From positions 1 through 32,038 of the forward strand of contig JAALOD010000024.1 of assembly GCA_013372845.1 (NCBI GenBank): a stretch of 32,038 nt of DNA, given 5' to 3'. The notes below the pieces were generated by a model. The model was given only the letters and a program-made list of their open reading frames with translations, was not told where the DNA came from and ran no database searches. This document shows, piece by piece, positions 6,073-29,866 of this stretch (position 1 is the first letter of the stretch; the number at the start of each line of letters is the position of its first letter). Source of the stretch: Candidatus Udaeobacter sp. GTDB lineage: Bacteria > Verrucomicrobiota > Verrucomicrobiia > Chthoniobacterales > UBA10450. The position numbers and the translations under genes were made by a program.

Positions 6073-7002
6073 ATGACGCGCGCACGTTTTTATCGTCAGC
6101 CGACTGCAACGGGGAAATCGAACTGGCAGCGGATGTCGCTCGTGAAAGAGGGCAGAAATCGTGAGCGCCGACGCGTTTCAAGTTTATCGCGGACTCAGTC
6201 TCCTTACAGCGAAACCGGATGCTTTAACGCTAGCCAAGGCTCCGCATCATCTGATTGGCACAACGCCTCTCCACGAAGAGATGAACGCAGAAAAATATCG
6301 GCGCGCGGCGTCTCGCGCCGTTGAAGAAATTCACTCGCGCGGCAAGCTCGCGATTGTTGTTGGCGGCAGCGGGCTTTATATCAAAGCGCTTACCCACGGA
6401 CTAGCGCCGTTGCCCGAATCCGATCCAAAGCTGCGTGAAAGATTGAACGCCATGAGCTTGGACGAATTGCACACCCAACTTGCCGAACTCTATCCCGAAG
6501 CGGCCCAAAAGATCGACCTGAAGAATCGCCGTCGCGTGGTTCGAGCCGTGGAGATTTGCCTGCGCACCGGAAAGCCGGTGTCGGGGGTTGTAGCCGGAGT
6601 CGGTGACTCCGGCCAGCCGGGATCAACGATCCCGGCTACAGGTGTTTTCGTTTTTCGCGACCGGGAAGAGCTTTATGCCCGCATCAATCAGCGAGTAGAA
6701 GCAATGTTCGAGAACGGCGTGATCGAAGAAGTGCGCGCCGCCGGGAAGGTGAGTTCGACTGCATCGCAGATGATCGGCTTTCGCGAAATTCATGAATTGC
6801 TCGATGGCAAAATGTCGATCTCGCAATGTATCGCCGCGATTCAGCAGGCAACCCGCCGATACGCCAAAAGACAGTTGACCTGGTTTCGGCGACAAACTAA
6901 TTTTTCACCGCTGAACTTGTCGCTTCTTACTCACAACGAAGCAATGATTCTGCTCCGAATGCTTTCGGAGCGGCGAAAGGTTTCGGCGGTTCGCGCAAAG
7001 GG

Positions 7003-7006
<4 letters not shown>
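6073..7006 (+). CDS. miaA: tRNA dimethylallyltransferase; intact ORF 6161..7006, with the N-terminal P-loop segment upstream in shifted frames
   Basis: ORF 6161..7006: SADAFQVYRGLSLLTAKP, IVVGGSGLYIKAL, RRRVVRAVEICLRTGKPVS, FVFRDREELYARINQRVEAMF. Upstream PTATGKS, ELAADVARERG and AEIVSADAF occur in three successive frames. Confidence 0.85.
6589..6640. repeat. Palindromic element A1, in frame inside miaA
   Basis: Inverted ends TGTAGCCGG/CCGGCTACA (9 of 9). Internal perfect stems GCCGGAGT-cggtg-ACTCCGGC and AGCCGGGATC-aac-GATCCCGGCT. Confidence 0.85.
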
Positions 7007-15771: not shown

Positions 15772-15842
15772 CTGTAGCCACCGGCCTGTGGCCGGTTACA
15801 GAGCCGGGACCGCCGAGACGGCCCACAGGGCCGTGGCTACAG
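15772..15842. repeat. Palindromic element A2, intergenic
   Basis: Inverted ends CTGTAGCCAC/GTGGCTACAG (10 of 10). Internal CCGGCC-tgt-GGCCGG and CGGCCC-aca-GGGCCG. Confidence 0.85.
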
Positions 15843-19989: not shown

Positions 19990-20067
19990 GTTGTAGTGGC
20001 GTTTGTGTCAAACGCCTGAGCTATACGGGAAAAGATAGGCGCTCGCCGCGGCGAGCGCCTCTACAAC
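19990..20067. repeat. Palindromic element A3, between acpP and mscS
   Basis: Inverted ends GTTGTAG/CTACAAC. GGCGTTTG-tgt-CAAACGCC. Perfect 24-bp palindrome AGGCGCTCGCCGCGGCGAGCGCCT. Confidence 0.85.
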
Positions 20068-28546: not shown

Positions 28547-28568
28547 AGAATTTTCGGACGAAGTCCCT

Positions 28569-28648
28569 TGGAGTGCGATGCGTCCTCGCATCGCTTTCTT
28601 ACGACGCTATGGACGCAAAAGCGACGCGAGGACGCGTGCGCACTCCCA
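28569..28648. repeat. Palindromic element B2, between hflC and the DUF488 gene
   Basis: Inverted ends GGAGTGCG/CGCACTCC. Internal GCGATGCG-tcct-CGCATCGC and GCGACGCG-agga-CGCGTGCGC (one bulge). Confidence 0.8.
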
Positions 28649-28726
28649 AAGCTTGCGCGAAACAAGATAACGCCGCCCGGCCATCAGAGTTGCTTGGAGA
28701 GTAATGTAATCTCATGTTTTTAAGCC

Positions 28727-29254
28727 ATGAAAATCTGCACGATTGGTCATTCGACGCGAACGATTGACGAATTCATTTCGTTGCTTCAGGCGAATCAAAT
28801 CAGGTTGCTCGTCGATGTTCGAAGCTTGCCCGGGTCGAAGCGCTATCCACAATTTAACAAGGAGGCACTGGCGGACTCGTTAGGCAAAACAGGAATTCGT
28901 ACGAGCATTTTCCTGAGCTTGGCGGGCGACGAAGGCAAAGCCGGAATCAAAAATGCCGCTTGGCGAAATGCGTCATTTCGCGGTTACGCCGATTACATGG
29001 AGACAGAGGAGTTCCGCAAAGGTGTTGAGCGCCTTCTCGATCTTGCTGCCGGCGCCGGACCCACTGCGATCTTGTGCGCAGAAGCCGTGTGGTGGCGTTG
29101 TCATCGGTCGCTGATTTCTGATTACCTTAAGGCGCGTGGCATCGAGGTTCTGCACATCATGGACGCAAAAAAAACCGAGTCGCATCCATATACATCTGCC
29201 GCGCGGATCGTGGATGGGAAGCTAAGTTACGGAGCAGACAGCACACTGCTGTAG
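28727..29254 (+). CDS. DUF488 family protein
   Basis: CTIGHSTRTIDEFISLLQANQIRLLVDVRSLPGSKRYPQFN, ILCAEAVWWRCHRSLISDYL. Confidence 0.9.
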   Translation: MKICTIGHSTRTIDEFISLLQANQIRLLVDVRSLPGSKRYPQFNKEALADSLGKTGIRTSIFLSLAGDEGKAGIKNAAWRNASFRGYADYMETEEFRKGVERLLDLAAGAGPTAILCAEAVWWRCHRSLISDYLKARGIEVLHIMDAKKTESHPYTSAARIVDGKLSYGADSTLL

Positions 29255-29362
29255 CGGCGGTCTGTGACCGTCGAGTCTGGGAGCGGTGGTTTCGTAACTA
29301 CCGGGGCCGATTTGGAAATCACCCTTCCGCGTTTTTTCGGCGCTCGCAGATCACCGCTACAG
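29249..29362. repeat. Palindromic element A5, between convergent genes
   Basis: Inverted ends CTGTAGCGG/CCGCTACAG (9 of 9). Internal CGGCGGTC-tgt-GACCGTCG. Confidence 0.75.
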
Positions 29363-29866
29363 TTATTTCCAATCGCGATGCGCAATATGTGCTGGCACAG
29401 GCGGCGACAATTTCTCGCGTTCCATCATTCGCTCCGCTAGCCATTGTACCCATTCGAAATATGTCTCTCGTTGAGCATCTCTGCGCAGTTCTGAGATGTA
29501 GCGGGATAGCTTTCGCCATGTGACAACAATTGGGCCACTGAAAAAGTCATCGATAAGATCAATAGTAACTTCTTTTCGGTATAGAAGAATGCCGAGAGCT
29601 TCCCAGCTCGTTAAAAGGGCATAAACATGATCCTCGCCATCTGGACCGAGCAGCGCCGGAATCTGCTCGCGTGCAACGTTATCTGGCAAAGAGCTAACGC
29701 GGCGCAACGAATGCGCGAAAGATGGAGTTTGAAATGATCGAACGAGGGCGGACATCGAATCGTGGTGTCGCTGTCCGCGATAATCCCTAATTTGCACCGC
29801 TGCGAAGATGACGCCGGCCGTCACAGCAAAAGCATTGACTAAATTTGCCAGAGTCGAGAGGTCCAT
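29363..29866 (-). CDS. Hypothetical protein with N-terminal TM; weak resemblance to DUF4760-type proteins
   Basis: 167-aa ORF, N-terminal hydrophobic segment followed by soluble helical-looking region. Confidence 0.6.
   Translation of the reverse strand: MDLSTLANLVNAFAVTAGVIFAAVQIRDYRGQRHHDSMSALVRSFQTPSFAHSLRRVSSLPDNVAREQIPALLGPDGEDHVYALLTSWEALGILLYRKEVTIDLIDDFFSGPIVVTWRKLSRYISELRRDAQRETYFEWVQWLAERMMEREKLSPPVPAHIAHRDWK

Follow-up and report, generated by a model that had tools for sequence, protein, structure and literature searches.

How did the stop codon of a gene come to lie inside a repeated element, and what has the element done to the proteins encoded on either side of it? The question is raised by a tail-to-tail gene junction in the window, by which we mean the whole stretch of 32,038 nucleotides analysed here (GCA_013372845.1, contig JAALOD010000024.1, positions 1-32,038, forward strand; Candidatus Udaeobacter sp.). 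A preliminary description had proposed that a palindromic element fills the gap between two convergent genes, supplies the stop codon of one of them through its inverted end, directly abuts the stop codon of the other, and may have replaced the original 3' ends of both. The junction is composed of the following features:

28727-29254, plus strand: DUF488-family gene (PF04343)
29249-29362, no strand assigned: whole element, CTGTAG...CTACAG, 114 nt, a head-to-head GTAG-REP dimer (BIME-like), supported by its fold and by homologous dimers at the orthologous site
29251-29273, plus strand: left REP unit, GTAG-CGGCGGTC-TGT-GACCGTCG, 23 nt, preceded by CT
29252-29254, plus strand: TAG stop of DUF488, within the GTAG of the left REP
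29274-29337, no strand assigned: spacer between the REPs, 64 nt, including a further inner hairpin
29338-29360, minus strand: right REP unit, GTAG-CGGTGATC-TGC-GAGCGCCG, 23 nt, with a decayed stem and preceded by CT on its own strand
29363-29365, minus strand: TAA stop of DUF4760 (TTA on the plus strand), host sequence adjoining the CTGTAG of the right REP
29363-29866, minus strand: DUF4760-family gene (PF15956), convergent with DUF488

First, the geometry of the junction is as the preliminary description had it, with exact coordinates. The DUF488 reading frame ends in ACA CTG CTG TAG. The element opens with CTGTAG (29249-29254), and the CTACAG with which it closes (29357-29362) is followed immediately by the TTA of DUF4760, so that the entire convergent gap is occupied. 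The palindrome itself is real and 114 nt long, but it is made up of two 23-nt REP units and a 64-nt spacer and is not one simple palindrome. In the left REP an 8-bp stem with one G-T pair encloses a 3-nt TGT loop; the right REP has a TGC loop and a stem with one mismatch and one G-T pair, and is found intact as a CGGCGCTC-type unit in relatives. The single strand of the element folds at -61.6 kcal/mol, compared with -41.7 +/- 3.9 for shuffled versions (z = -5.1), and none of 200 shuffles was as stable. An Rfam covariance-model search of the region left the element unmatched at E values up to 1, and further copies of the spacer were found in the sequence searched only in genomes G015 and G047, at the orthologous site. 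A second, unlike palindromic repeat lies at 28560-28660, in the gap that separates DUF488 from the SPFH gene upstream; it has partial copies on contigs C1, C69, C99 and C141 of the window's genome and is missing from the SPFH-DUF488 gap of G020.

Second, the element is not a chance palindrome, because its GTAG-hairpin architecture recurs both in the window and genome-wide. We scored each of the 256 tetranucleotides, over 353 kb of stretches from the window's genome, for a hairpin of 7 bp or more with a 3-4 nt loop directly after it, and GTAG ranked first (33 of 1252, or 2.6%, against a median of 0.16%); detection was strict and misses decayed copies, including, at a stricter cut-off, the left stem of the window's own element. 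These 33 hairpins comprise several stem types, are dispersed over the 353 kb, are preceded by TT or CT in 28 cases and, according to home-made gene calls based on a dicodon score, are extragenic or at gene edges in 27. Other GTAG-hairpin units or pairs in the window lie at 6588-6641, 15772-15842, 19991-20066 and 22374, among them the following dimer:

15772-15842, no strand assigned: second head-to-head GTAG-REP dimer, stems ACCGGCC / ACGGCCC with TGT loops, of the REP type that borders the C111 RAYT of this same genome

The pair at 6588-6641 (stems CCGGAGTC / CCGGGATC) apparently sits inside a predicted gene, 6161-7006, again by a home-made call. Across the genus, the stem family of the left REP was recovered in 35 of 35 genomes with one mismatch allowed, and a reversed-pattern control gave 0. 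This CGGCGGTC family is low-copy, with about 1-17 strict copies per genome and four close copies in G000, and its head-to-head heterodimer with the CGGCGCTC type occurs also at C58 and in G001.

These properties place the element in the GTAG REP superfamily as described by Di Nocera et al. (2013; PMC3733652), for which a GTAG end, a stem of 6-9 bp, a short loop, head-to-head pairing with spacers of 20-100 bp and a bias towards gene 3' ends and the gaps of convergent genes are given. In the window, GTAG directly precedes the hairpin at both ends, the stems of 8 bp with TGT and TGC loops and the inverted arrangement around a 64-bp spacer fall within these ranges, and the units are dispersed, multi-copy, mainly extragenic and located at gene 3' ends. 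The same study lists Verrucomicrobia (O. terrae) as rich in GTAG REPs; the stem sequences of the window element and its Udaeobacter-type host genus differ from what is described there, and none of the papers searched combines Udaeobacter with palindrome terms. The REP of the S. maltophilia REPtron (group 3 TnpA-REP) measures 23 nt, with a perfect 8-bp stem, a 3-nt loop, a 5' GTAG tag and a CT cleavage dinucleotide (PMC8266576), and the window REPs resemble it in size, stem length, loop, GTAG and CT, although their stem differs and is slightly decayed and their host is another one. Similar to E. coli REP/BIME elements, they form inverted pairs of two slightly differing REPs (here of the CGGCGGTC and CGGCGCTC types) at gene 3' ends; the E. 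coli units differ in their longer loop and in the bulge of their stem.

Third, genes for REP-associated tyrosine transposases (RAYTs) were found next to GTAG REPs. Four proteins score above the cut-off for NCBIfam NF047646 (REP_Tyr_transpos), all with HxH and the conserved Tyr, and the closest solved structure to the RAYTs by sequence is that of TnpA-REP (4ER8). Three of these RAYTs are encoded in the window's genome, and each is flanked by GTAG hairpins that have a stem type of their own. One more, of 156 aa (L083:1450-1920), on contig C68 of the congener G004 (102 bits; cut-off 80), was located by matching stem-pattern positions with Y1_Tnp positions, and has the CGGCGGTC stem family on both sides, including the exact left-REP sequence; the link between this REP family and a RAYT runs through this congener. 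In the window's own assembly, which is 83% complete, none of the RAYTs found is bordered by the CGGCGGTC stem family. Most of the 30 Y1_Tnp loci examined in the genus resemble ordinary IS200-type transposases without GTAG hairpins.

We are therefore highly confident that the element is best explained as a GTAG-type REP dimer, or BIME, in a soil Verrucomicrobiota genome, a copy inferred to have been moved by a RAYT to the DUF488-DUF4760 junction, where it closes the reading frame with its own TAG. A RAYT/TnpA-REP would recognise GTAG together with the hairpin, cut at the neighbouring CT, and copy and move REPs as single-stranded DNA. TnpA-REP enzymes cut single-stranded REPs at CT (PMC8266576), and this dinucleotide precedes both GTAGs of the element. 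The dimer was probably spread by a domesticated transposase, with one copy ending up between the two gene tails. Because GTAG starts every REP, a copy that enters a reading frame in phase would bring a TAG, mostly in the form YTG-TAG (Leu-stop), thereby closing that frame harmlessly. In relatives that carry this dimer its two TAGs end both genes, and in the window's lineage a TAA lies a few bases ahead of the second.

The convergent position and the very stable hairpin would also suit an intrinsic transcription terminator that arose in situ and acts in both directions, but we consider this very improbable: there is no terminator-like site on either strand, the sole T-run lies inside the hairpin, and units of this type are found across the genome in non-convergent settings, some even within genes, and flank RAYT genes. 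A search of both strands of the element for a GC-rich hairpin followed by a T-run found none, and an intrinsic terminator or promoter at the element was rejected, as none was found. If the hairpin directly after the stop has any role, it would probably be that of a post-transcriptional 3'-end structure, which might slow terminating ribosomes or shield mRNA ends. REPs at most 15 nt from a stop are reported to lower translation in E. coli (summarised in PMC12306157), and since the hairpin begins right after the DUF488 stop, lowered translation of this gene is possible.

Whether the element has changed the two proteins can be judged from the orthologous site. The same dimer, in varying states of decay, occupies the DUF488-DUF4760 gap of G015, G047, G009, G040, G020 and G007. 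G009 and G040 end each of the two convergent genes in an intact GTAG, one per REP, an arrangement for which we found no description in the passages of PMC3733652 consulted. In G007 decay of the left GTAG has produced GTAA, which still serves as the stop; unlike in G009 and G040, the DUF4760 frame of the window stops at a TAA immediately before the right CTGTAG. In six element-free congeners (G012, G022, G024, G008, G018 and G048) the DUF488 and DUF4760 genes share an overlap of 4 bp, and DUF4760 is longer by about 14 residues. These genes could suggest that the element inserted and truncated both neighbours, replacing longer native C-termini. We regard this as highly unlikely, since paralogues, other genera and G053, a member of another genus without any element, share with the window the HR-D/N-W-K/R position at which DUF4760 terminates. 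Because other genera and distant paralogues, which have no REP at this stop, end where the window does, the long DUF4760 tail is a derived state, and therefore the element replaced no original DUF4760 3' end; moreover, the TAA lies outside the element. On the DUF488 side, most element-free congeners end about 1-4 residues away and a few up to 5 earlier, and G053 has the same LL-TAG without a REP. Hence, when C-termini were compared with those of element-free orthologues, DUF4760 kept its terminal residue and DUF488 differed by at most a few residues, and the suggested replacement of original 3' ends finds little support; for DUF4760 we reject it, as outgroups share the terminal residue. Support in the DUF488 and DUF4760 gene trees was too weak for gain and loss to be polarised. 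Element-free junctions with the 4-bp overlap and the long DUF4760 tail include loci L015, L019, L024 and L025.

A further question is whether the TAG came with the REP. It could predate it at DUF488, because G053 has LL-TAG (CTG-TTG-TAG) without a REP, directly adjoining the DUF4760 stop, and excising 108 bp from the window yields the same layout. The TAG would then be native to DUF488, with REPs lodging later and using the existing GTAG as their tag, and the stop would not be element-supplied. Other relatives carry REPs with at least five different stems at this DUF488 stop (for example AGCGACG, GGCGTCT, TCCGCTG and GCGGCCG), which would fit such an order of events and suggests repeated landing or turnover. 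However, while G053 may have a native TAG at a site that is empty, its junction could equally be what is left of a REP, and evidence from other genes makes a native TAG rather unlikely. The 353 kb of the window's genome contain 336 genes predicted by the home-made calls, of which 29 end in GTAG; 6 of these 29 run directly into a REP-like hairpin, compared with 1 of the remaining 307 (Fisher p = 1.6e-6). One of these six is itself a RAYT gene (L006:1357-1845; G000:C78), whose stop is the TAG of its flanking REP. Genome-wide, stops in the context GTAG number 29 against 28 for ATAG, 22 for CTAG and 20 for TTAG, without an excess beyond the REP-bearing ones. In addition, two further genes end in CTG-TAG or TTG-TAG (K-L*, LL*) in congeners with a REP or a likely REP remnant, and mostly in TGA or unrelated stops, at about equal length, in REP-less congeners, and therefore REPs do bring their TAG. 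On these comparisons REPs are a recurrent source of stop codons in the window's genome and its congeners, which supports the proposal that the end of the element supplies the stop of DUF488.

That GTAG REP termini often provide a TAG stop, and that convergent GTAG REPs lie within 20 bp of the 3' ends of both genes, is stated by Di Nocera et al. (2013; PMC3733652). Stop supply by such repeats is thus already published and the junction is a new, well-documented example of it; because the general point is known, the gain lies in such a case from an abundant, hard-to-culture soil lineage. The orthologues and counts show how a repeat of a domesticated transposase can settle harmlessly at gene ends, its built-in TAG becoming the stop, and annotators are cautioned that, where a hairpin follows a Leu-stop YTG-TAG, the gene end may derive from a repeat. 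More tentatively, and less likely than not, gene 3' ends could be favoured and re-used landing sites for REPs because the GTAG of a REP seals its own insertion; unrelated stems would be swapped at one stop, and a dimer could close two convergent genes. If this holds, the DUF488-DUF4760 junction would preserve a natural record of REP re-landing in bacteria of the Udaeobacter type.

Finally, the tract from about 29100 to 29820, which holds the element and DUF4760, is roughly 90-98% identical to G015, against about 70-80% in its flanks, and DUF4760 of G047 is similarly close to that of the window. This pattern probably reflects a recent homologous exchange in which the element was carried along.
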